A stretch of DNA of 64,000 bases from an uncultured Dehalococcoidia bacterium (GTDB taxonomy: Bacteria; Chloroflexota; Dehalococcoidia; Lucifugimonadales; Lucifugimonadaceae). The notes under the pieces are model-generated. The model made no database searches. It worked only from the letters and a program-made list of their open reading frames with translations, and had not been told where the DNA came from. Shown here piece by piece: positions 16,751 through 32,926 of the stretch (positions within the stretch are counted from its first letter, which is position 1; each line of letters begins with the position of its first letter). The stretch is taken from NCBI GenBank assembly GCA_958295935.1, contig OY282385.1, forward strand, positions 62,001 to 126,000. The letters are read 5' to 3'. A program made the translations under genes and the position numbers.

Positions 16751-19700
16751 TCAAGTACTGCCGGCGGAACGGCTGGACGGCAGGGCGATGAGGTCAGAAT
16801 CAGGATTTTTGTTGGTCAGAGGATGTTCGAGATTGGCGGGGAAGACCGCCAAGTCGCCGGTTTCAATCAACCTCTCTATGACGCGGTATATCCGCTCCCC
16901 GACGTTCCTGGACACTGTCCTGAACCCCAGAAGCCTGGCCGTCTCTGACGCTGCTTCCTTACGATCGATCCTATAGGAGTGTTTCACAATCTCCTTGAGA
17001 GCTTCGGCGATTTCCTCCGGGGAGACCATCTCGATTTTCTTTCCCGCGAGATCACTTCGGTCTCTTACGATGGGTAATTGCATACCAGGGTCCCACAGGA
17101 ATTCACCCTTCTTTACCACTTCTCCTCTCCATTCTGCATAGCGGATGGCCCGATCGAGATTCTGCTTAATCCTGTCGCCTATTCTTTTGACGGGCCAAGC
17201 ATCCGCAATGCGGCGTCGTACATCGCTAACATGCACGGGGCTTTCAGTTCGGACAATGTCGATGATCGGGTCCCGCAGGATAGTTAGGGGAACTTTATGA
17301 AGCTCATAATAATAAGTGTTTATGCTGGGTCGTGCCAATTCATATCGGCGTGGGGCGACTAAATCGCTTCTGAGCTTCTCTTTGTCCTCACGTTCGATCC
17401 GGGGTCTGTCCTTCTTTTGTGGTGAGATATCAATGGGAGCTGTGGCCTTCGCTTGCTCGATGGCCTGGTTGGTGCGTTCCAGCTCGCGCTCCGGGTTGCG
17501 GGACCAGTCGGTACTCCAAATTCGGTACAGCTTCCAGCCCAAGTCGTTCAAGTACTGTTCTCTGAGCCTGTCTCTGTCTCTTGCCCAGCTGGAGCTGTGG
17601 TACGCGGCCCCGTCGCACTCGATCCCCAAGATATATCTGCCGGGATGTTCTGGGTCCACTACGGCAAGGTCTATGAACTTACCGCCGGTACCCACCTCCT
17701 CGCGGATGTCATGTCCCAAGGATCGGAGCTTGCTTGCGACTTCTTTCTGGAACGGCGAGTCTACCTCGCGCCCAGACTCTTCCGCAGGATCCTTAAGAAC
17801 GCCAGTATCTGCGTAAGCCAGGAAAGTTTTGAGCGCTCGTACGCCTCTGGATCTGGTGCGACGCAGGTCGATATCGGCGGCGCGCAGATTTGTGAAGACC
17901 TCACATCGTTGCTTTGCCCTAGTGATAAGGACATTCAGGCGCCTTTCACCGCCGTCTGCCGTTAGGGGTCCAAAGTTCATGGCAACCTGCCCATTGGCGT
18001 CTCGCCCGTATCCAATGCTTATGAAAATAACGTCCCGTTCGTCGCCCTGAATATTTTCCAGGTTCTTTACGAAGAACGGCTCTTCAGGATGGTCATAAAA
18101 AAACGTCTCACATGAGGGGTCCTCTAGTCGGAGTATTTCCAACTGGTCCTGGATGGCATCTCTTTGAGCAGAACTGAAAGCGGCCACGCCGAGAGTCAAT
18201 TCCGGGCTCTGCCTGGCATGTTCCATGACCGAGGCAGCCACTCGTTCGGCCTCTTTTCGATTCGTTCTGCTTTTTCCTCGGTCGTATACGGCCTGGGAAA
18301 GGTGGTGATACTTAAGTCCAAAGTTCTCTTTACCGTAATAGGGGCTGGGGTAGACCGTTAGTCTGTTTTCGTAGAACTCCCGGTTCGATACTGCTATTAG
18401 CGACTCGTGCCTACTTCGGTAATGCCATCGCAGCATCCTGTTCGGAGCCCCCTGGGCACGGAACAGTCCCAAGATGCTCTCCATATCCGCGACCGCGCTG
18501 GCATGCTCCTCTTCGTCCTCGTCCGATCGCGTGACGTTATCGAAAAAACTGGTCGGCGGCAGTTGCATGCTGTCACCCACCACCACCGATTGTTTGGCTC
18601 TCATGAGAGTGCCTAAAGCATCTGCCGGCCTCACTTGGCTGGCCTCGTCGAACACCGCCAAGTCGAAGCTGACGCTGCCAGGGCGCAGATACGTTGCTAT
18701 GGACATAGGACTCATCATGAATACGGGTTTGATATCCTGGATGGCTTCTCCGGCTCGGTTCATCAATTGCCGTATTGGAAGATGCCTTCGCTTCTTCTCG
18801 AACTCTCTTCGCAGAATCCCTAGCTGCCCACCTGCGTTGTGTTTGGGAAGTTGGGACCAATGGGAACAGGCCACCCTGGTGCGGTTGTGGTCCAGCGCTG
18901 ACTCGTCCAGCTGACGGAATTTTCCTATGCGATCTTCGTGGATATTTCTGTTGAAGCCTGCTAGAGCAGGCCGCTCATAGTAGGCGCAGGATATGACGTG
19001 TAGATACCACTTTAGTTTCAATATATTTATCAGATGATCTACTGCTTCAGGCCACTCTTCCCCAAGCTCCACAATTGATCCCAACCCTTTTGCCTTAGCG
19101 TCGTGAGCCGCTCTGTTGAACCCTATAAGGTCATGGAGATTGTCTATCCCTGTTGACCAGACTTTGAGGACGTTGGACTGCTCCACGAACGGCAGGGTTA
19201 TCAACCCCTCGTACTTCTTATTAGTTGAACTGGTGCGCAAGGATCCTTTGAATATCTTCTCAGGGTCTATTTGCAAGAAGGACTGAAGTTCATCCAGGAG
19301 CTTGGGATGAGAGTTCGAGACTAACTTGACCTGACTCAGCAGATCGCCCACCTGCGCCGCGTCTATGTCCTTGCGCATAGACAAGACGGCATCCAGCGTT
19401 ATCGCGCCGCTGTCGACGTCTTTGAATAGCTCAAGCGCCCACTCTACTGTTCTGCTGATAGCGTCCCAATCGGATTCCGCACCTTGCCATTTCGGTCCCA
19501 GCACAACCTTGGCAATCTGTGACAGTTGCTCAAACGTCTGTCGATATTTTTGTTCCTGAAGTATCGCATTCACGAGCGCTATCTTGTCCTCGACACTCGA
19601 GGGAAGCGGTACGCGGCACAGCTCAGCGAGATACTTCGTGTCTCGCCGGTATTTTGGATACAGGAATCTCCAGAACTTTCGGCCAATTGTGGATAGTGTG

Positions 19701-21565
19701 TCGTGAATTTCCGCCGCGTCAGCATTCCACGCGCTCGGCTTCAGGATGCTGCCATACTTGGAGTGCAAGCCGGCATGAGCGCGCCCGGCGTCCGTTAGGC
19801 GCTTCATCTCATCGCGTTGGGAGTGCTTTTGGAATGCGGATAGATCCACATTCTGAATATCGGGGGCCTTGGCGGCGCGTTCCGCGATGGGCAGCAGGTC
19901 TTCGGTCTGTGCGGCGTCCTCCGGCGGCTTCAGTTCGAGGGCCTCTGCGAGGTCTGACGCCGTTCCTTGGAGCGTTTCCAGCGATTTTATCGCCGTATCG
20001 ATTTTCTCTTCCAAGGATGCCTGATCGTTCGGCGTGAGCATATCCCGACTCGATCCCCAGAAGGGGTGATTTTGTGGCACTCCGACGTCGTCTTTGAGGT
20101 CTTTGAGTCTGGACTGAAGTTGGGAAACGGCTTCCTTCTTCGACTCGAAGTCGGCGCCTGACCACGAGTTGATGTCTGCTATTTCGACACTCGGCAGTTG
20201 AGGGCCCTCTTGTTCTTGGCGTCTAATACAAAGGTACTCGCCGTAGGCCCTGTACGGAGTGACTCCGGTGTCGCCGGCAGTGGAATTGACCGCGTCGGCG
20301 TACTCATTTAGTATGTTCCGAAGGCTGGTAAGCGCTTTGAAATCACTTTCTATGTCATTGAGATTCGGTTGGCGCAACTCCAATGTCTTATTCAATTCGT
20401 CCAAGACGACTTTCTTGTTCGTCTTTTGGCTGTGCAGCTCAAGGCATGCGACACCCAGGCCGATGTTGTCCAGCCTGCGTTTCACGACTTCCAGTGCGGC
20501 CATCTTTTCGGAGACGAACAGGACTGTTTTTCCATCAGCTATGGCCTCCGCGATAATGTTTACGATGGTCTGAGATTTACCCGTTCCCGGTGGTCCCTGG
20601 ATCACAAAATTGCGGCCTTGGCTGACGTCGAAAATCGCTAGTGTCTGTGACGCGTCGGCATCCATGACGTGGTGAATGTCCTCCGGTCGCAAGTGGTCGT
20701 CCAGATTGTCTTCTTCGTGGATCTTCGGATCAGGCTCCGAGAACCCCTCGGCGAACAGGTTGCATATGATGGAGCTTTCCTGGGGACCGTACCCCATTCC
20801 GCTGGGCCAATTATTGGGATCTAGATCTTTGTACATGAGGAACTTGCCAAACGAGAAGAAACCGAGTACGACGCTCTCGCGGTCTACTGACCAGCGCTTC
20901 AAATGTTCAACGCGGGTTGAAACCTTCGCGAAGTACTTGTCGACATCGAGGTCTTCTTCGTTAGGGGGGTCGGGAATCCTTGGGCCGAACTCGGTCTGTA
21001 CTTTTTCGATGAACGAGCGATTGCCTCCCAGCTCCTCGCCGGTATATTCGATGTGGAATCTACGTCGAACATCGGATCGAGCAATCTTGACCGGAACCAA
21101 TACCAAAGGCGCTCTGCGCATGGTGTTGCTACTATCCGATTCGTACCACTCGACCATGCCAAGGGAAATAAAGAGGGTGTTTACGCCTTGTTCCTGGATC
21201 ACAGTGTTGACGGCGTGGTAGGTCTTGAGGAGACGAGATTGCAGCTGGTTGTCCGGTTCGTTGGTTTGCAAGCGGTAAGCGTTGCGCCGCGGAGGTAGGC
21301 TATTCGGCCTGCTGTCACCATCCCGGCGGGGCGTGAACGACATACGGCGACCCTTTTTAACCAAGACGTCGAAGACGGCAGAGGGGATTTCATCGACGAC
21401 TTCCACTCCCCTGGACTTGAGCGTGCGGTAGTTCAGCAACGGGTTACGGAGGCTGAAGTCGAGAAGTTCCTTCCTCGACGCTTCAATCTCTTTGATGATC
21501 GGGTCGCCGGTTTCCTCTTTATCGGAGGATGGCGGGGTTTCGGAGTTCGCGTAGGCCATGCACAA
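16751..21565 (-). CDS. DUF4011-SF1 helicase-Vsr-like nuclease-DUF3320 protein
   Basis: A single 1604-residue protein with several domains. The DUF4011 region (about 25-130, LLDFSLRNPLLNYR) comes first. It is followed by an SF1 helicase with Walker A GPPGTGKS near 323-330, motif II FDEASQ near 970, and late motifs GDSMQLPP and LNVLITRAKQRCEVF. A Vsr/DUF559-type nuclease fold follows near 1270-1350 (GIECDGAAYHSS, then RLREQYL and YRIWSTDW). The C-terminal DUF3320 lies around 1440-1500. Proteins of this architecture are widespread on defence islands and are regarded as candidate single-gene anti-phage or restriction systems. It stands alone between metabolic genes, some 7 kb from the tandem methyltransferases. 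Helicase and nuclease motifs look intact. Confidence 0.88.
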   Translation of the reverse strand: MCMAYANSETPPSSDKEETGDPIIKEIEASRKELLDFSLRNPLLNYRTLKSRGVEVVDEIPSAVFDVLVKKGRRMSFTPRRDGDSRPNSLPPRRNAYRLQTNEPDNQLQSRLLKTYHAVNTVIQEQGVNTLFISLGMVEWYESDSSNTMRRAPLVLVPVKIARSDVRRRFHIEYTGEELGGNRSFIEKVQTEFGPRIPDPPNEEDLDVDKYFAKVSTRVEHLKRWSVDRESVVLGFFSFGKFLMYKDLDPNNWPSGMGYGPQESSIICNLFAEGFSEPDPKIHEEDNLDDHLRPEDIHHVMDADASQTLAIFDVSQGRNFVIQGPPGTGKSQTIVNIIAEAIADGKTVLFVSEKMAALEVVKRRLDNIGLGVACLELHSQKTNKKVVLDELNKTLELRQPNLNDIESDFKALTSLRNILNEYADAVNSTAGDTGVTPYRAYGEYLCIRRQEQEGPQLPSVEIADINSWSGADFESKKEAVSQLQSRLKDLKDDVGVPQNHPFWGSSRDMLTPNDQASLEEKIDTAIKSLETLQGTASDLAEALELKPPEDAAQTEDLLPIAERAAKAPDIQNVDLSAFQKHSQRDEMKRLTDAGRAHAGLHSKYGSILKPSAWNADAAEIHDTLSTIGRKFWRFLYPKYRRDTKYLAELCRVPLPSSVEDKIALVNAILQEQKYRQTFEQLSQIAKVVLGPKWQGAESDWDAISRTVEWALELFKDVDSGAITLDAVLSMRKDIDAAQVGDLLSQVKLVSNSHPKLLDELQSFLQIDPEKIFKGSLRTSSTNKKYEGLITLPFVEQSNVLKVWSTGIDNLHDLIGFNRAAHDAKAKGLGSIVELGEEWPEAVDHLINILKLKWYLHVISCAYYERPALAGFNRNIHEDRIGKFRQLDESALDHNRTRVACSHWSQLPKHNAGGQLGILRREFEKKRRHLPIRQLMNRAGEAIQDIKPVFMMSPMSIATYLRPGSVSFDLAVFDEASQVRPADALGTLMRAKQSVVVGDSMQLPPTSFFDNVTRSDEDEEEHASAVADMESILGLFRAQGAPNRMLRWHYRSRHESLIAVSNREFYENRLTVYPSPYYGKENFGLKYHHLSQAVYDRGKSRTNRKEAERVAASVMEHARQSPELTLGVAAFSSAQRDAIQDQLEILRLEDPSCETFFYDHPEEPFFVKNLENIQGDERDVIFISIGYGRDANGQVAMNFGPLTADGGERRLNVLITRAKQRCEVFTNLRAADIDLRRTRSRGVRALKTFLAYADTGVLKDPAEESGREVDSPFQKEVASKLRSLGHDIREEVGTGGKFIDLAVVDPEHPGRYILGIECDGAAYHSSSWARDRDRLREQYLNDLGWKLYRIWSTDWSRNPERELERTNQAIEQAKATAPIDISPQKKDRPRIEREDKEKLRSDLVAPRRYELARPSINTYYYELHKVPLTILRDPIIDIVRTESPVHVSDVRRRIADAWPVKRIGDRIKQNLDRAIRYAEWRGEVVKKGEFLWDPGMQLPIVRDRSDLAGKKIEMVSPEEIAEALKEIVKHSYRIDRKEAASETARLLGFRTVSRNVGERIYRVIERLIETGDLAVFPANLEHPLTNKNPDSDLIALPSSRSAGST

Positions 21566-23534: not shown

Positions 23535-23744
23535 TTGGACGGTAAACTGCGCCCGGAGAGGCTTGGCCGCGGGTGTGGGAGGAGTGGGTGGTCCGTGGGC
23601 CGGGCACAGTTTCCTAGTGGAGTTGCCGCAGGCTCTTTTTATTTGTCGGTTTGAGTAAACTGTCTGCGTTGGCGCTCTATCGGGCCTTGCTTGTGCCGAA
23701 TCCGCTCGGTTAGGTGAATCTGGCGAGGCCGCCAGCAGAGATTT

Positions 23745-23750
23745 GGAGGT
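23745..23750 (+). promoter_or_regulatory. Ribosome binding site fixing the UGSC gene start
   Basis: GGAGGT, 5 bases before GTG 23756. This is a much better site than anything before the more upstream in-frame GTG at 23714, so translation probably starts at 23756. Confidence 0.7.
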
Positions 23751-23755
23751 TTCAC

Positions 23756-25582
23756 GTGCATCTTCTGGAAGTGATGAACCCGGTCGCCCGGCAGCGGGCG
23801 CTTGAGAGCCCATTTCAAACGACTCCGAGGCCGCGGAGTTTGGACGGCAAGACGGTTGGGCTGGTGTGGAGCGGGACGCATGGCGGTGACGTTGCGCTGA
23901 AGCGTGCGGGTGAGATGCTTCAGGAGCGGTTCCGGGGCGTGCGAGTGAACTTCTACACGGGCGGCAACTACCCGACGCCGCCGGCCGTACTCCGGCAGGC
24001 AGGGGAGGAGTGTGACGCCGTAATCGGCGCCACGGCGGACTGAGGGACGTGTGCGTCGTGGATGGTCCACGACATGATCGAGGTCGAGAAGATGGGCAAG
24101 CCCGGCGTGCCCATCGTGTCCGGCCGGTTCGAGGGCGACGCCATCGCGAGTTCGAGGGCGTTCGGGATGCCCGATCTGCAGTTCGTGGTAGTGCCTCGCA
24201 TCTACCGGAACCTGGCTCTGGAGGAGTGCGTCAGTCAGACGGAGAGTTCGTTCGGCCAACTGGTCTCGGCGTTGACGGAGAACGGAGAGGGGGCGGCGCG
24301 TGCGCGTGCTGCGGATGAGGAGGGGCCGCACAACTTCGAGGGCGATGACCGCTACGACGCGGCGCTGCGGATGAACGAGGAGTTCATCCGGCGCGATTGG
24401 GGCGACGGCTTTCCGCTGCTGCCTGCGACGCGGGATGCGGTGGACGATTTGCTTGCGGGTACGCGCCTTCCTGCGGATTACGAGGTGTGCGACGTGCCGC
24501 CGGGCTTTGGGGTGGCGACGGTTGAGAAGATAGCGGTTAACGCGGCTCTGGCAGGGGCCAGGCCTGAGCACATGCCGGTCATCATAGCCTCGGTCAAGGC
24601 TCTTTCGGAGATCGGTTCTCACGGCGGCAAGTCGCTGCTGATGTCAACGAGTCCGAACGCGCCGCTGCTGATCGTGAACGGTCCTATAGCGAACGAGCTG
24701 GGCATCAACGCGCGTTCGGCTCTGGGGCCTGGGCGGGACAACCGCATCAACATAGTCATTGGCCGCGCCTTTTCGCTTTGCCTGCGCAACATCGGTTACT
24801 GGTATCCGAATGAAATGGACATGGACACGATCGGCACCACTCGCAAGTTCGTCCATTGCATAGCGGAGAACGAGTCGGCCAGCCCATGGGCGCCGTTCCA
24901 CGTGGACCGCGGCTTCGATGCAGATGAGAGCGCGGTCAGCCTGTTCATCACGGACGGCGAGTTGGACGTTCAGGACCAGGGCAATACGACTGCGGAGGGG
25001 CTGCTCAAGACTCTGGCCTATGGCTGTACGTTCGGCACGCGGTCGTTGCAGCAGAAGGACGACGGCGAGCGTCTGATACTGATGCCTCCGGACGTTGCCG
25101 GCCCCATTGGTGCGTCCGGCATGTCCAAGGCCGAGGCCAGGGACTTCATCCACGCCCACGCGAACGCCAGTCTTGGCAAGATGATCCAGTACATGCCGCT
25201 GGAGGGTGAGGCGAGAGTGGTGGAGGAGTGGAAGTGGTTGGAGAATCTGAGCGAGCAGCAGCGGTTGGATATCACGGTTCCGGTGCTCTACAGCGCGGAC
25301 AGGTACTTCATAGTGGTCGTCGGCGCCGATCGGGCAAAGACCGGTGTAATGCCCAGCGGCCCCAGCCCGGTTACGGTTGGCATAGACCAGTACCGGCGTA
25401 AGGGAGGGCAGGCAGTGGAAGAAGTAGAGATGCCTGCACGAAAGAAGGATTTCGCTGTGACCATGCAGGAGTACTGGACGCCTGAGAGGCGAGCCGAAGC
25501 GTCACGAAAGCAGAAAGCTGCCTGGACGCCTGAGCGCAGGAAGAAGGCCAGCGAAGCTTCTAAGGCTATTTGGAACAGCTAG
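23756..25582 (+). CDS. UGSC-family selenoprotein with in-frame UGA (Sec96)
   Basis: Read as one frame with TGA 24041-24043 translated, this gives 608 residues. The first 170 match the UGSC family: SLDGKTVGLVWSGTHGGDV, then CDAVIGATAD, the motif U-G-T-C at 96-99, ASWMVHDMIEVEKMGKP and AFGMPDLQFVVVP. Selenocysteine at this position is known in the family. Residues 190-550 form a second conserved domain (NEEFIRRDWGDGFPLLP onward) of unknown function. The C-terminal 35 residues carry two WTPERR repeats. The frame upstream and downstream of the TGA is the same, and homologous sequence crosses it without a gap. A SECIS-like hairpin follows at 24055-24073. Conventional annotation would give two broken genes, at 23756-24043 and 24062-25582. 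Sec insertion is inferred and not proven. Confidence 0.85.
24055..24073 (+). promoter_or_regulatory. Candidate bacterial SECIS hairpin (UGSC gene)
   Basis: GTCGTGGA (24055-24062) pairs perfectly with TCCACGAC (24066-24073) around the loop TGG. The loop lies 19 nt after the UGA. Bacterial SECIS elements need an apical loop about 16-37 nt downstream of UGA with a G in the first two loop positions; both hold here. Confidence 0.75.
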
Positions 25583-25789: not shown

Positions 25790-27502
25790 TCAGGCCAGTT
25801 CCGGGTGCGTGTTCTTTACGCGGTGCCTGTCGTCCACAGGTCGAATCATCATGTTGGCTATGAAGGCGGCGGCGAGAAGGCCGGCCATGACGAACATCGT
25901 GATGTTGTATAGGTTTGGCGTGGGGTCTATCGTGCCTGGCGGGGCGATTTCCATCAGTTTGCCAATGGTGACGGTCTTGGCTGCGATGAGTTCTTCGAGT
26001 CGTTCTATGGGCGCTCCGAACTTGAGTGCGAATTCGGCGGGATCTACCCTGGATGCCAGATCGTTGATCGATGAGGCGATGGACCTATCGCGAAAGTAGG
26101 TGACAACGAAAGGCCCCAGCAGTCCGGAGGCGCATACCGCGGCGAGTACCCGGCCGTGAATTCCTCCGACGTGCAGCCTTCCGTATAGGTCGGCTACGTA
26201 TGCCGGCAGGGATGCGATTCCGCCGCCGAACATGGTTAATGCCAGCATGGTGGCGGCGTAGAACATTATGAGCCAGGTTACGGCTGGATTTACGCTTACG
26301 GAACTGGTGGCGAAGGGGATGGAGAGATACAGCGCGGCCCCGATCCCGGTAAGGCAGAAGTAGGTCTTTCTTCTTCCTATGTAGTCTGACAGGTACGCCC
26401 AGAAGAACCTTCCCAGGAGGTTGAAGGCGCTTATCATCAGGACGTAGGTGGCTGCGAAGGCTGGGGTGACGATTCCGGGCAGGGTTGCGCCGAAGATGTC
26501 GCTCATCATGGTTTTGGCGACGCCGATTATGCCTATTCCCGCGGTTGCGTTGAAGCACAGGGTGATAGATAGGAGGTAGAACTGCGGCGTCTTGTGAACC
26601 TGGGTTATGTGCACGTCGTCGGGCAAAGCTTCTTTGGCCGGCGGCCCGTCGCTCTGCGGAGCTTCTCGCCCCGGCTCCCACCCTCTGGGGGGTACCCTAT
26701 ATGCGAAGGCGGCGATCATCATGACGGTGAAGTAGATTATCCCCAGTACTATGAATGCCCCGGTCGCGCCGGTATCGCCGGTGCCTACGACGTAGACTCC
26801 GGCTGCGCCGGACGCGTCGGCTGCGCTTGTGACGACCACTTCGATTTGCTGTCCTGCGACGTTAGCGAATCTTCGGCCATTTTCGGTAACCAGGTTTACG
26901 GCTTCGGCGGGGCCGAGGTATTGCGGGGCTTCGTAGAAGAGCCTTATCAGGAGCTCTTTCAAGGGGACGGCGAGTATTGCGCCGCCTCCAAAGCCCATCA
27001 GAGCCGTGCCTGCGGCCATTCCTGGCCGGTCGGGGAACCATCGGATGAGGTTGGCGATTGGGGCGACGTATCCCAGCCCGATTCCTGCTCCGCCAAGGAC
27101 TCCGTATCCCAGGAAGACCACCCACAGTTGATGCAGGTATATGCCTAGGCTGCCTACGAGGAATCCGCCTCCCCAGAGGCATGCGGCGCAGGCGCCGACC
27201 ATCCGAGGTCCAGCGACCCTCAGCCAGCGGCCGGCCAGCGCTGCGGCGATGCCTAGGAAGAGTACGGCTACGGAGAATACCCAGACTACGGAGCTGATGT
27301 TCCAGTCATCTGCCGCGCTGGATACCACGCCAAGTTCCCTGATGAGGATGGGGTTGAAGATGCTCCAGGAATAGACCGCGCCGATGCAGAGATGCATGGC
27401 TACCGCCGCCGGGAGGACTTTCCACCTGTTGAAGTCTCTCGGCGCGACGATATTCTCTCTCGTCATGAACGAAAGAGGGGATGAGTCCGGTGTTTTCTTC
27501 AT
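25790..27502 (-). CDS. OFA-family major facilitator transporter, copy 1
   Basis: A 570-residue 12-helix MFS protein starting MKKTPDSSPLSF. The oxalate/formate-antiporter family pattern is clear: LCIGAVYSWSIFNPIL in helix 1, GGAGIGLGYVAPIANLIRWFPD between helices 4 and 5, and YLSDYIGRRKTYF in the central loop. A loop of about 60 residues with low complexity (AADASGAAGVYVVGTGDTGATG) lies before helix 7, and a second long loop follows helix 11. Such carriers exchange small carboxylates. The next gene upstream is a same-length paralog, and three 2-hydroxyacid dehydrogenases follow in the same direction, which suggests hydroxy- or oxo-acid transport. Confidence 0.88.
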   Translation of the reverse strand: MKKTPDSSPLSFMTRENIVAPRDFNRWKVLPAAVAMHLCIGAVYSWSIFNPILIRELGVVSSAADDWNISSVVWVFSVAVLFLGIAAALAGRWLRVAGPRMVGACAACLWGGGFLVGSLGIYLHQLWVVFLGYGVLGGAGIGLGYVAPIANLIRWFPDRPGMAAGTALMGFGGGAILAVPLKELLIRLFYEAPQYLGPAEAVNLVTENGRRFANVAGQQIEVVVTSAADASGAAGVYVVGTGDTGATGAFIVLGIIYFTVMMIAAFAYRVPPRGWEPGREAPQSDGPPAKEALPDDVHITQVHKTPQFYLLSITLCFNATAGIGIIGVAKTMMSDIFGATLPGIVTPAFAATYVLMISAFNLLGRFFWAYLSDYIGRRKTYFCLTGIGAALYLSIPFATSSVSVNPAVTWLIMFYAATMLALTMFGGGIASLPAYVADLYGRLHVGGIHGRVLAAVCASGLLGPFVVTYFRDRSIASSINDLASRVDPAEFALKFGAPIERLEELIAAKTVTIGKLMEIAPPGTIDPTPNLYNITMFVMAGLLAAAFIANMMIRPVDDRHRVKNTHPELA

Positions 27503-27600
27503 TGGGGAACGGCTATGTCTATGATGGCGTGAGGCTCTGGGCATTGTCGGTAGAGCCGGCTGGCTGGCCGCCGGTTTCGCCGCGCGGTGGGCGGAGTCCG

Positions 27601-29313
27601 TCAGGCCAGTTCCGGGTGTGTGTTCTTTACGCGATGCCTCTCGTCCACAGGTCGAACCATGATGTTGGCTATGAAGGCGGCGGCGAGAAGGCCGGCCATG
27701 ACGAACATCGTTGTGTTGTATAGGTTTGGCGTAGGGTCGACGGTGCCTGGCGGTGCGATTTCCATCAGTTTGCCAATGGTGACGGTCTTGGCAGCGATGA
27801 GTTCTTCGAGTCGTTCTATGGGGGATCCGAACTTGCGTGCGAATTCGGCGGGATCTACCCTGGATGCCAGATCGTTGATCGATGACTGCATGGATCTCTC
27901 CCGAAAGTATGTGAGAACGAAAGGCCCGAGCAGTCCTGCGGTACTCCATGCGGTGAGTATCCGGCCGTGAATTCCTCCAACGTGCAGCCTTCCGTATAGG
28001 TCGGCTATGTATGCCGGTATGGATGCGAATCCTCCGCCGTACATGGTGAATGCCAGCATGGTGGCGGCGTAGAACATTATGAGCCAGGTTATGGCTGGGT
28101 TTACGCTTACGGAACTGGCGGCGAAGGGGATGGAGAGGTACAGCGCGGCCCCGATTCCGGTAAGGCAGAAGTAGGTCTTTCTTCTGCCTATGTAGTCTGA
28201 CAGGTACGCCCAGAAGAACCTTCCCAGGAGGTTGAAGGCGCTTATCATCAGGACGTAGGTGGCTGCGAAGGCCGGGGTGACGATTCCGGGCAAAGTTGCG
28301 CCGAAGATGTCGCTCATCATGGTTTTGGCGACGCCGATTATGCCTATTCCCGCGGTTATGTTGAAGCACAGGATGATCCACAGGAGGTAGAACTGGGGGG
28401 TCTTGTGAACCTGGGTTATGTGCACGTCGTCCGGCAAAGCCTCCTTGGCCGGCGGCCCGTCGCTCTGCGGCGCTTCTCCCCCCGGCTTCCACCCTCTGGG
28501 GGGTACCCTATATGCGAAAGCGGCGGTCATCATGACGGTGAAGTAGATTATCCCCAGTACTATGAATGCCCCGGTCGCGCCGGTATTGCCGGTGCCTACG
28601 ACGTAGACTCCGGCGGCGGCGGACGCGTCGGCTGCGCTTGCGACGACCACTTCGACTTGCTGTCCTGCGACGTTAGCGAATCTTCGGCCATTTTCGGTAA
28701 CCAGGTTTACGGCTTCGGTGGGGCCGAGGTATTGCGGGGCTTCGTAGAAGAGCCTTATCAGGAACTCTTTCAAGGGGACGGCGAGTATTGCGCCGCCGCC
28801 AAAGCCCATGATCGCCATGCCGGCTGCCATACCTGGCCGATCCGGGAACCATCGGATGAGGTTGGCCACGGGCGATACGTATCCCAGCCCGATTCCTGCT
28901 CCGCCAAGGACTCCGTATCCCAGGAAGACCACCCACAGTTGATGGAGGTATATGCCTAGGCTGCCTACTAGGAATCCGCCTCCCCACAGGCATGCGGCGC
29001 AGGCGCCGACCACCCGGGGGCCAACGATCCTCAGCCAGCGGCCGGCCAGGGCCGTGGAGACGCCGATGAAGAGGATGGCTACTGAGAATACCCAGACTAC
29101 GGAGCTGATGTTCCAGTCCTCTGCCGCGCTGGATACCACGCCAAGTTCTCTGATGAGGATGGGGTTGAAGATGCTCCAGGAGTAGACCGCGCCGATGCAG
29201 AGGTGCATGGCTATCGCCGCCGGGGGGATTCTCCACCTGTTGAAGTCTCTCGGCGCGACGATGCTCTCTCTCATCATGAACGAAAGAGGCGATGAGTCCG
29301 GTTTTTTCTTCAT
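27601..29313 (-). CDS. OFA-family major facilitator transporter, copy 2
   Basis: A 570-residue paralog of the adjacent transporter, differing at scattered positions throughout; even the 3' untranslated boundary is duplicated. It starts MKKKPDSSPLSF. Signature segments LCIGAVYSWSIFNPIL, GAGIGLGYVSPVANLIRWFPD and YLSDYIGRRKTYF are intact, with no frameshift. Differences cluster in the last third (TMYGGGFASIPAYIADLY, RILTAWSTAGLLGPFV), which may alter substrate choice. The 98-bp gap to copy 1 suggests co-transcription. Confidence 0.88.
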   Translation of the reverse strand: MKKKPDSSPLSFMMRESIVAPRDFNRWRIPPAAIAMHLCIGAVYSWSIFNPILIRELGVVSSAAEDWNISSVVWVFSVAILFIGVSTALAGRWLRIVGPRVVGACAACLWGGGFLVGSLGIYLHQLWVVFLGYGVLGGAGIGLGYVSPVANLIRWFPDRPGMAAGMAIMGFGGGAILAVPLKEFLIRLFYEAPQYLGPTEAVNLVTENGRRFANVAGQQVEVVVASAADASAAAGVYVVGTGNTGATGAFIVLGIIYFTVMMTAAFAYRVPPRGWKPGGEAPQSDGPPAKEALPDDVHITQVHKTPQFYLLWIILCFNITAGIGIIGVAKTMMSDIFGATLPGIVTPAFAATYVLMISAFNLLGRFFWAYLSDYIGRRKTYFCLTGIGAALYLSIPFAASSVSVNPAITWLIMFYAATMLAFTMYGGGFASIPAYIADLYGRLHVGGIHGRILTAWSTAGLLGPFVLTYFRERSMQSSINDLASRVDPAEFARKFGSPIERLEELIAAKTVTIGKLMEIAPPGTVDPTPNLYNTTMFVMAGLLAAAFIANIMVRPVDERHRVKNTHPELA

Positions 29314-29634: not shown

Positions 29635-30651
29635 CTAGCGGGCGGCTGCCTGGGCGACGGCCCGTCGTCGGGCGGTGATGCTGGCGGCCACTTCGGGGTT
29701 CTGTGCGGCCATGGGCCACTCTCCTCGCAGTACGGCGGCGACCTGAGCGGCTGCGCGGTGTGCGCTGAGCCAGGCAGAGCGGCTTGAGCCGCCGGCCATG
29801 TGCGGGGCGCAGATGACGTTGTTCATCTTGAGTAGGGGGTTGTCGGGATCGGTGGGTTCCTGCTCGAACACGTCCAGCCCGGCGCCGCGAATCTGTCCGT
29901 CCTGCAGGGCTTCTATCAAGGCTTGCTCGTCGACGACCGGCCCTCGGCACACATTCACCAGGTAGGCGGACTCCTTCATGGCCTGAAACTGCTCGGCGCC
30001 GATCATGTGGTGCGTTTCATCGTTCAGCGGCACTATTACGGTTACATAGTCTGCGCGGGCGCACAGTTCGTTCAGATCGAACACCTGCTCGACCCTGTAC
30101 TCCTGTATGAGCCATGGCTGAACGTAAGGGTCGAACACGAGGGTTTCCATACCCCATCCGGTCACCTTGCGTGCGACGAGGCGTGCGATGTTGCCGAATC
30201 CGACGAGGCCGAGGGTCTGGGTATCGAGCGGGTCGGTGCGGAAGTCGAAGCGGTTCCACTTTCCGGCCCGTACTTGCTCGGTGGCCTGCACGACGTGGCG
30301 GTTGAGAGCGAGTATGAATGCCATTGCCTGGTCGGAGACCTCCTCGGCGCACATACCGGCGGAGTTGGTGAGGATGATTCCCTTTTGGGTGCAGGCCTGT
30401 ACGTCGATGTTGTTGAATCCGTGTGAGTAGACGGCGAGCACCTGGCAGCGGTCAGCGGCGTTGATGACCGGCTCTACGCCCCATGCGCCGCGGGTCATGA
30501 TGGCGTCGGCGTCCTTTACGACCTCCATCGCCTCGCCCTGGCTCTGCGGGTTGGCCTGTACGAACTCTACGTCGAGGTCGGCCATTTCCGCCCTTTCGGC
30601 GTCTATGGATGCGTCTTCGGGGCCCAGTATCAGTACTTTGTGCTCTGCCAT
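29635..30651 (-). CDS. D-2-hydroxyacid dehydrogenase, paralog A
   Basis: A 338-residue NAD-dependent dehydrogenase of the PGDH/CtBP family. The Rossmann dinucleotide loop is GLVGFGNIARLVARKV (about 150-165). The catalytic Arg is in NVCRGPVVDE, the Glu in DVFEQEPTDPDNPLLK and the His in VICAPHMAG. It oxidises or reduces 2-hydroxy/2-oxo acids; the substrate is not predictable. It is the last of three consecutive paralogs on the minus strand and precedes the two OFA carriers. The proteins share the architecture but are only moderately similar, so they are probably not recent duplicates. Confidence 0.88.
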   Translation of the reverse strand: MAEHKVLILGPEDASIDAERAEMADLDVEFVQANPQSQGEAMEVVKDADAIMTRGAWGVEPVINAADRCQVLAVYSHGFNNIDVQACTQKGIILTNSAGMCAEEVSDQAMAFILALNRHVVQATEQVRAGKWNRFDFRTDPLDTQTLGLVGFGNIARLVARKVTGWGMETLVFDPYVQPWLIQEYRVEQVFDLNELCARADYVTVIVPLNDETHHMIGAEQFQAMKESAYLVNVCRGPVVDEQALIEALQDGQIRGAGLDVFEQEPTDPDNPLLKMNNVICAPHMAGGSSRSAWLSAHRAAAQVAAVLRGEWPMAAQNPEVAASITARRRAVAQAAAR

Positions 30652-30777
30652 TGTGTTGTTCCCAGTCGTTTTTCGTCTATTCCGTGTCTGTGGTGCGGTT
30701 TGCCGGTGGAGTTCGATCGGTTCGTTGCGGAGCTGGTGCGCTGTCCTACGCGCCGAGGGCGGGCATCCGGGGGTTGG

Positions 30778-31827
30778 CTACGACGCTAGCAGCTTCGCCA
30801 GATAGGTCTCCCATTGCAGGGGCGTGGAGCGGTCCCTGATCACGTGGCGCACTTCGGGGTTGATGAGGGACATGGGCCAGGATCCGGTGGCGATTCGCAC
30901 GGCCTCCTCGCCCATCTGGGTTTGCGCCCTCTCCCATGCCGCCTCCGAGTGGCTGGCGTAGTGGTTGGTGACCGCGACGTTGTCCATCTTCAGTAGGGGG
31001 TTGTCTGGGTCGACGGGCTCTTGCTCGAACACGTCTAGGGCTGCGCCTGCGATCCGGCCTTCCTGAAGGGCCTCGATGAGGGCCTTCTCGTCTACGACGG
31101 GTCCTCGGGAGCAGTTGATGAGGTATGCGGTGGGCTTCATGATCTGGAACTGTCTCTCTCCGATCATGTGGTACGTCGCGTCGTTCAGATAGACGTGCGG
31201 GCTGAGATAGTCCGCCCTGCGGCAGACCTCATCGACGCTTGGGACGGGCTCGACTCCGTACTCCTTGATGTCCCAGGAAGGCTTGAGCGGGTCATGGGCG
31301 ATCACGTTCATTCCGAAGGCCTTGGCCTTGCGGGCTACGGCGCGTCCGATGTAGCCCAATCCGATGATGCCGAAGGTCTGGCCGGATATGTGCCCCATGG
31401 GGTATAGGTGTTCCCGTGTCCAGACGCCGCTGGTTACGAGTTTGTGATGTAGGACGAACTTCCTCGATGCGACGAGGAACAGCATCATGGTGTGGTTGGA
31501 CACCTCCTCGGTGCCGAATGAGGCGGTGTTTGCGAGGATGATGCCGTTTTCGGTTGCGGATTCCAGGTCTATGCCATCGAAGCCGTGGCCGAAAGAGACC
31601 ATGCCCTTGCATCGTCCGTTCCTGCCCATGTGGTCGAATACCTGTGCGTCCATCGCGTGGCCCTGGGACAACATCACGTCTGCGCCCTTCACGGCCTCGA
31701 TGATCGCTCCGGCGTCGGTGTCCTCCACCCTGTCAACCTGCGCGCCTATGGCTCGGAAGGCGCGTGTGTGCTGTTCGATGTCGGTGTCGGCGGGTCCTAC
31801 GTAAAGTCCTCGAATCTCGTTGCCCAT
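30778..31827 (-). CDS. D-2-hydroxyacid dehydrogenase, paralog B
   Basis: A 349-residue member of the same family. The nucleotide-binding loop is GIIGLGYIGRAVARKA, the Arg motif is NCSRGPVVDEKALIEAL, the Glu is in DVFEQEPVDPDNPLLK and the His is in VAVTNHYASHS (the usual Pro before His is Asn). AGGAG nine bases upstream of ATG 31827 supports the start. It is the middle gene of the three-paralog run, with 126-bp and 142-bp gaps. It is cytoplasmic, and probably acts on a substrate moved by the neighbouring OFA carriers. Confidence 0.87.
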   Translation of the reverse strand: MGNEIRGLYVGPADTDIEQHTRAFRAIGAQVDRVEDTDAGAIIEAVKGADVMLSQGHAMDAQVFDHMGRNGRCKGMVSFGHGFDGIDLESATENGIILANTASFGTEEVSNHTMMLFLVASRKFVLHHKLVTSGVWTREHLYPMGHISGQTFGIIGLGYIGRAVARKAKAFGMNVIAHDPLKPSWDIKEYGVEPVPSVDEVCRRADYLSPHVYLNDATYHMIGERQFQIMKPTAYLINCSRGPVVDEKALIEALQEGRIAGAALDVFEQEPVDPDNPLLKMDNVAVTNHYASHSEAAWERAQTQMGEEAVRIATGSWPMSLINPEVRHVIRDRSTPLQWETYLAKLLAS

Positions 31828-31969
31828 GTGTTGATTCTCCTACGTTGCTTCGCTGGCTGTTGCAGCGTCTTTGCGTTTCCTTGCGGCGGGGGTCGGAGGG
31901 TCCTGTGTATTTTGGCGCTTTGCCGTCAGACTGCGCGGTCTGGCGGGGGTAATCAGGCCGGTATTCCGT

Positions 31970-32926
31970 TCACTCCGGTTCGGTCACGACGCTCTCCGGC
32001 TGTTGTCCCGACCATACCCTTTCCATGTTGTGGAAGGCGAAGTCCACCCTGCGCGGGAAGCTCTCGACGGTCTGCCCGGCGGCGTGCGGGGCTGCGGTTA
32101 CGTTGTCGAGCTTGAGCAGGGGGTTGTCCGGGGACGTGGGTTCCTGCTCGAACACGTCGATTCCCGCGCCGTAGATTCGGCGGTTCTTGAGCGCCTCGTA
32201 CAACGCCGTTTCGTCGACGACCGGCCCCCGGCAGGTGTTCACGAGTATGGCCGTGGGCTTCATGAGCGCGAGTTCGCGTGCCCCGATCAGTTTGTGCGTG
32301 GACGGTACGAGCGGTACGTGAAGTGAGACGACGTCTGATTCCCTCAGCAAGGCGTCTAGCTCGACTCTGCGCGCGCCTGCGGCCTCTATGTTTGGGCTTG
32401 CCGCTACGTCGGCGTACAGGGTGCGCGTCTCGAACCCCTGCAGCAGCCGGGCGAGCATCGAGCCTATTCGGCCGCCTCCGACTATTCCGACGGTCTTGCC
32501 GAACAGTTCATGCCCCTGTCTGTGTTCGGTCTGCCAGCCTCCGGCCCTGACGGCTCGGTCGAGGGCGTGCAGGCGGCGGTGAGCGGCTAGTATGAGCGAC
32601 AGGGCGAACTCTGCGACGGGTATGGCGTTTGCTCCGCCGTTGTTGGCTACCGGGATACCCAGTTCGGCGGCGACGCGCATATCGACCTTGTCCCATCCTG
32701 CGGCGGCGAGTTGCACGAGTTTCACTTTTTTCCCAGCCCTTAGCAGATCGGGCCCCACGGTGTGGGCGCATGAGAAGATGAAGTCGGCTTCTCTGGCGGC
32801 TTCCACTTTTTTCGCGTCATCGTTCTCGCTGTCGAAAGCGGTCATGTCCCAGCCGTCGGGGAGGCGCTGCCTGGCAAAGCCCGACAATGGCAGCGAGGGC
32901 CCTGTGAGGCAGAGTACTTTTGGCAT
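31970..32926 (-). CDS. D-2-hydroxyacid dehydrogenase, paralog C
   Basis: A 318-residue family member starting MPKVLCLTGP. The dinucleotide loop is GIVGGGRIGSMLARLL, with a second Gly where A and B have Phe or Leu. The Arg motif is NTCRGPVVDETALYEAL, the Glu is in DVFEQEPTSPDNPLLK and the His is in VTAAPHAAGQT. It is the first gene of the putative dehydrogenase-transporter unit reading leftward, and it is divergent from the methyltransferase gene at 33044. Confidence 0.87.
   Translation of the reverse strand: MPKVLCLTGPSLPLSGFARQRLPDGWDMTAFDSENDDAKKVEAAREADFIFSCAHTVGPDLLRAGKKVKLVQLAAAGWDKVDMRVAAELGIPVANNGGANAIPVAEFALSLILAAHRRLHALDRAVRAGGWQTEHRQGHELFGKTVGIVGGGRIGSMLARLLQGFETRTLYADVAASPNIEAAGARRVELDALLRESDVVSLHVPLVPSTHKLIGARELALMKPTAILVNTCRGPVVDETALYEALKNRRIYGAGIDVFEQEPTSPDNPLLKLDNVTAAPHAAGQTVESFPRRVDFAFHNMERVWSGQQPESVVTEPE

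Follow-up and report, generated by a model that had tools for sequence, protein, structure and literature searches.

A gene that very probably encodes one 608-residue selenoprotein, and that standard annotation would split in two, was identified in the 64,000-nucleotide stretch of DNA analysed here (hereinafter the window). The gene adds a well-supported member to a known family, UGSC, and its fusion is of a known type. The proposal of the initial annotation, that a UGSC-family selenoprotein was hidden by an in-frame UGA, was well supported by a Pfam match, by the selenocysteine (Sec) machinery of the host genome, by a TGA codon kept in 88 of 88 homologs, and by a SECIS element. Judged by computation, Sec would almost certainly be inserted at UGA 24041 in the cell. 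This settles the annotation in favor of a single 608-residue selenoprotein over two fragments, and likewise for the SAR202 relatives of the gene. No paper naming both SAR202 and selenoprotein was found in the literature searched. The coordinates of the features are listed in Table 1.

Table 1. Features of the putative selenoprotein gene, in positions of the window.
Feature	Position	Strand	Evidence or remark
Shine-Dalgarno-like GGAGG	23745..23749	+	6 nt upstream of GTG start; from sequence
Complete selenoprotein gene (predicted)	23756..25582	+	608 aa from GTG start, followed by TAG stop; selenocysteine predicted at TGA
UGSC domain, residues 6-174	23771..24277	+	Pfam PF24696, 101.5 bits; predicted doubly wound alpha/beta fold
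UGA codon, predicted to be read as selenocysteine	24041..24043	+	residue 96, U of UGTC motif; TGA in 88/88 homologs
Putative bacterial SECIS hairpin, 8-bp stem and TGG loop	24055..24073	+	covariation, codon constraint
Second domain, residues 196-547	24341..25396	+	unmatched in Pfam and without clear fold match; encoded separately in many Chloroflexota
C-terminal tail of 61 residues, two WTPERR repeats	25397..25579	+	found only in host genome among those searched

The computed frame of 608 codons contained a single internal stop, the TGA, and was closed by TAG at 25580-25582. Standard translation of the region gave two ORFs (23714-24043 and 24062-25582); as had been noted initially, they lie in one reading frame and are split by the TGA alone. 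This frame is open from GTG to TAG. The GTG start agreed with the MHLLEV start of relatives, and homologs aligned across residues 1-547. The codon was confirmed as the U of a UGSC-like motif, here U-G-T-C, and Sec or Cys is indeed reported at this position of the motif in the description of the family (PMC2398784).

The match to the Pfam UGSC family (PF24696) had an E-value of 7.7e-29 and a score of 101.5 bits against a cut-off of 25. The NCBIfam equivalog model NF041046 (UGSC_fam) was matched over its whole length with 87.6 bits, below its cut-off of 125, which indicates that the protein belongs to a divergent branch of the UGSC family. The sub-clade of the window protein carries U-G-T-C, and U-G-S-C was found in fused relatives at a greater distance as well as in a second fused copy in the host genome, which is 47% identical and likewise has TGA; either motif is accepted by the Pfam model. 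As far as the family is described (PF24696; PMC2398784), the protein resembles its members in having the domain above the Pfam cut-off, Sec as the first residue of a UGxC motif, a SECIS after the UGA, and an occurrence in aquatic bacteria. It differs from them in the UGTC of its sub-clade, in an additional second domain of about 350 residues, and in its score under the NCBIfam equivalog cut-off.

At the motif column, TGA was present in all 88 homologous regions, which shared 30-79% identity with the window protein, and TGT or TGC was found at the codon corresponding to 24041-24043 in no relative examined. The codon of Cys 99, three residues after Sec 96, was TGC or TGT in the same 88 of 88. 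Further, UGSC domains were identified in 42 of the 400 Chloroflexota genomes scanned, and almost all of these domains contained a single TGA. The sequence was conserved on both sides of the TGA among homologs from many assemblies, in agreement with the initial annotation. Sequence comparison thus places the conservation of the codon beyond chance. In the collection of named genomes, almost all relatives belonged to SAR202/Dehalococcoidia Chloroflexota; among them was Candidatus Lucifugimonas marina with its complete genome, the cultured strain JH1073 carrying the ortholog L093. Judged by these relatives, the window itself is probably from the same group. Two orthologs (L067, L068) were found in records labelled Candidatus Entotheonella; in the tree, L068 was placed within the Chloroflexota clade. 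The records may be mislabelled, or the gene may have been transferred.

Two fused paralogs deviated from the usual motif. In one (L120; genome G027, C101:29848-31446, minus strand), TGA occupied both motif positions (D-TGA-GT-TGA-TSW), possibly as a UxxU di-selenocysteine, with a one-base sequencing error as an alternative; it adjoins a paralog in which the two codons are TGA and TGC as usual. In the other (L130; genome G178, C21:50387-50908), the UGxC motif was replaced by DTRSGS, which contains neither Sec nor Cys. This gene, with a TGA-containing copy about 4 kb away, possibly encodes a non-catalytic partner.

The hairpin downstream of the UGA consists of GTCGTGGA (24055-24062), the loop TGG (24063-24065), and TCCACGAC (24066-24073). 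The perfect 8-bp stem and TGG loop described initially were recovered; the distance of 19 nt from the UGA was correct for the start of the loop, but not for the stem. Bacterial SECIS elements are hairpins directly after the UGA with a small apical loop containing G (PMC1088965), and the UGG loop starts 19 nt after the UGA. The folding energy was ordinary (z -0.16) and uninformative alone, and an Rfam gathering scan of the window gave no match. Across the 54 distinct orthologs of the close set, the eight base pairs formed in 96% of cases, compared with 65% expected when codons were redrawn from the synonymous usage of each gene (2000 trials, maximum 73%); in 15 distant homologs the values were 71%, 54%, and 67%, respectively, these counts being of sequences and not of independent events, with a large gap to the null. 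Compensatory wobble changes were detected from TCG/CAC to TCA/CAT (L097 and L108) and from GCG/GAC to GCA/GAT (L107 and L114), and in L052 and L057 the stem was wholly rewritten with its pairing kept. The outermost pair was broken in a few orthologs, and the innermost pair was lost in some that have TGC instead of GTC. Normalized codon entropy was 0.09-0.29 for the four scorable stem codons; over 82 other conserved codons in the vicinity it averaged 0.87, with no value below 0.15. Since the constraint on the stem far exceeds what the protein demands and the stem covaries, the hairpin is identified on sequence evidence as a bacterial SECIS.

The host assembly (2.75 Mb, a single contig, C1, on which the window starts at C1:62001) was searched by family for the selenocysteine machinery. 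All four components, selA, selB, selC, and selD, were present, so that the absence of selB, selA, and tRNA-Sec, named initially as a ground for refutation, does not apply. The selB gene was located about 3 kb before the start of the window (C1:57380-59224, minus strand; 337 bits, above cut-off), selA at C1:2504438 (516 bits), and selD, with an in-frame TGA of its own in the GGUAGK motif, at C1:970798 (381 bits). In addition, a tRNA-Sec with anticodon UCA was identified at C1:2535117, called SeC by ARAGORN and scored at 70 bits with Rfam. To the extent that genomic data can tell, the host organism decodes UGA as selenocysteine. The co-occurrence of selA with UGSC is weak evidence, because selA was present not only in 23 of 23 UGSC carriers but also in 16 of 20 relatives without UGSC.

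The structure model of the full-length protein was of moderate quality (pLDDT 73.9, from a shallow alignment of 34 close sequences), with pLDDT mostly 70-96 over residues 21-170 of the UGSC domain. In the model of the N-terminal domain, strand and helix alternate five times, and the helix that follows strand 3 has Sec 96 at its N-terminus. Most of the PDB fold matches listed for this domain were proteins with a doubly wound alpha/beta fold (e.g., WrbA and B12-binding domains), the best match having a Z-score of 11.2 over 128 residues. A thioredoxin-like fold was suggested for UGSC in the 2008 description (PMC2398784). That fold has the order beta-alpha-beta-alpha-beta-beta-alpha with its motif at the first helix, whereas Sec follows strand 3 in our model; the UGSC domain is predicted to adopt a doubly wound alpha/beta fold and not obviously a thioredoxin fold, although a fold search leaves some probability for the latter. 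Searches of PDB sequences with the protein and with its profile gave no match.

The second domain matched no Pfam family. When modelled alone, it reached a pLDDT of 84.8 and a pTM of 0.84, and its model had no clear fold match in the PDB, which by itself is no proof that the fold is new. Asp 217, Thr 255, Asn 332, Arg 337, Asn 345, Lys 364, Glu 371, and Glu 373 were conserved in this domain, and they would plausibly suit the binding of a substrate or cofactor. The suggestion that the full protein might be a new architecture was not upheld: the fusion is common in Chloroflexota, with close and distant fused relatives throughout the class, and a fusion of UGSC to a conserved domain, Unknown_1, appears in the Global Ocean Sampling selenoproteome of 2008 (PMC2398784, Figure S1A). 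As described there, that protein likewise combines a UGSC selenoprotein with one conserved domain that has an unclear function and is also found alone, and the second domain of the window protein is likely to be Unknown_1, a candidate identity drawn from the description.

What is new here is that the second domain is often a separate gene in related genomes, usually beside a gene for a stand-alone UGSC selenoprotein. A UGSC-like gene was located within a few kilobases of stand-alone second-domain genes in 11 of 14 loci, often directly adjacent, and in these 11 loci it carried TGA in the motif; L124 and L131 are examples of loci with the split pair. At L131 and L133, a single stand-alone UGSC selenoprotein gene is surrounded by a cluster of three genes for a stand-alone second domain. 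The tree of UGSC domains (73 in all) united 36 fused proteins, the window protein among them, in a group with a support of 99/98, and it set two further fused proteins (L058 and L059) apart, which indicates that the fusion, or its loss, happened more than once. Because the domains are fused in some genomes and neighbors in others, the sequence comparison suggests that they are most likely working partners. This fused-or-adjacent pattern names a partner for a major uncharacterized marine selenoprotein family and offers a direct handle on its function. Close orthologs shared no conserved operon, their neighboring genes being variable, and no relatives of the window protein were found in the viral contigs searched.

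Two other readings of the TGA were considered. Taken as a real stop, a pseudogene, or a sequencing error, it would leave a truncated protein of 95 residues and an unrelated ORF from ATG 24062, in line with the two ORFs given by standard translation. This is implausible because the TGA is kept in all 88 homologs, from many assemblies, and in nearly all UGSC domains of the 42 Chloroflexota genomes; the protein conserved on both sides, the covarying hairpin, and the full Sec machinery also argue against it, and we regard it as highly improbable. Decoding of the UGA as an amino acid other than Sec (Trp or Cys), whether through readthrough or an altered genetic code, is the most remote of the readings, even though the frame would be open under any code that reads TGA: the genome has a tRNA-Sec with anticodon UCA, Sec or Cys is what the family description reports at the motif position (PMC2398784), in relatives such as L064 and L076 the orthologous genes still end with UGA, and a SECIS would be needless.

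Regarding function, a distant kinship to selenoprotein B of glycine or proline reductase (GrdB/PrdB), with reductive cleavage of an amino-acid-like substrate, was evaluated. PrdB has the same motif type, UxxC, in the 2008 table (PMC2398784), the host genome contains five GRDB-family genes, and the sole profile alignment places the UGSC site in the strand-helix GPAFNAGRYGxACG of GrdB. However, the protein had no Pfam GRDB match at E-values up to 1, the hhalign probability was 2.2% (E 0.021), and it thus differs from selenoprotein B of glycine or proline reductase (PF07355 and PrdB) in lacking significant sequence or profile similarity, so that this kinship was not supported and appears quite improbable. 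The five GrdB-family (PF07355) genes of the host genome (G000:C1) all lack in-frame stops. It is slightly less probable still that the second domain holds a three-Cys [4Fe-4S] cluster like that of class I fumarases, which would make the fusion a redox-controlled hydro-lyase. Fold matches to class I fumarases and CyuA recurred, but these were weak (Z 3.4-4.3) and within the range of chance arrangements; Cys 245, 342, and 368 were invariant in close orthologs, but Cys 245 and 342 were not kept in the wider family. As only Cys 368 was mostly kept (34 of 48), such a cluster is unlikely and was rejected. Genes for class I fumarase were represented among 40 relatives by only one fragmentary case.

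A two-part redox selenoenzyme, in which the UGSC domain and the second domain act together, is the likely role of the protein, Sec insertion being the one strongly supported step of the proposal. SelB with Sec-tRNA(Sec) would recognize the hairpin of the mRNA at 24055-24073, and Sec would be inserted at UGA 24041 instead of termination. The selenol would then lie at the start of the helix after the third strand, three residues before the invariant Cys (U96-G-T-C99). From the UxxC arrangement we infer that Sec 96 may act as a nucleophile or reductant, attacking or reducing its target, and that Cys 99 may resolve it as a selenenylsulfide. As a dedicated partner on the same polypeptide chain, the second domain would most likely bind a substrate or cofactor and position the substrate. 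That the protein is a thiol/selenol redox enzyme of small-molecule metabolism has, in our estimate, about an even chance. More tentatively, UGSC and its partner domain might constitute an undescribed class of two-component selenoenzymes that work in the breakdown of resistant organic matter. The two components would be fused in SAR202 and separate in other Chloroflexota, and the selenol domain would have a doubly wound alpha/beta, non-thioredoxin fold; we consider this possible but rather doubtful.

The C-terminal tail begins after the conserved GIDQY end, where orthologs stop. Nothing similar to it was found in 30 related genomes or in Pfam, and it may be the result of a recent loss of a stop codon. 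Further downstream, two adjacent and closely similar MFS transporter genes, a tandem duplication, were located at 25790-29313 (minus strand) of the window, and this pair was followed by three D-2-hydroxyacid dehydrogenase-like genes (29635-32926). Upstream, the region 16751-21565 (minus strand) encodes a protein of 1604 residues with DUF4011, AAA helicase, MTES_1575 nuclease-like, and DUF3320 domains, which looks like a defence-type helicase-nuclease.
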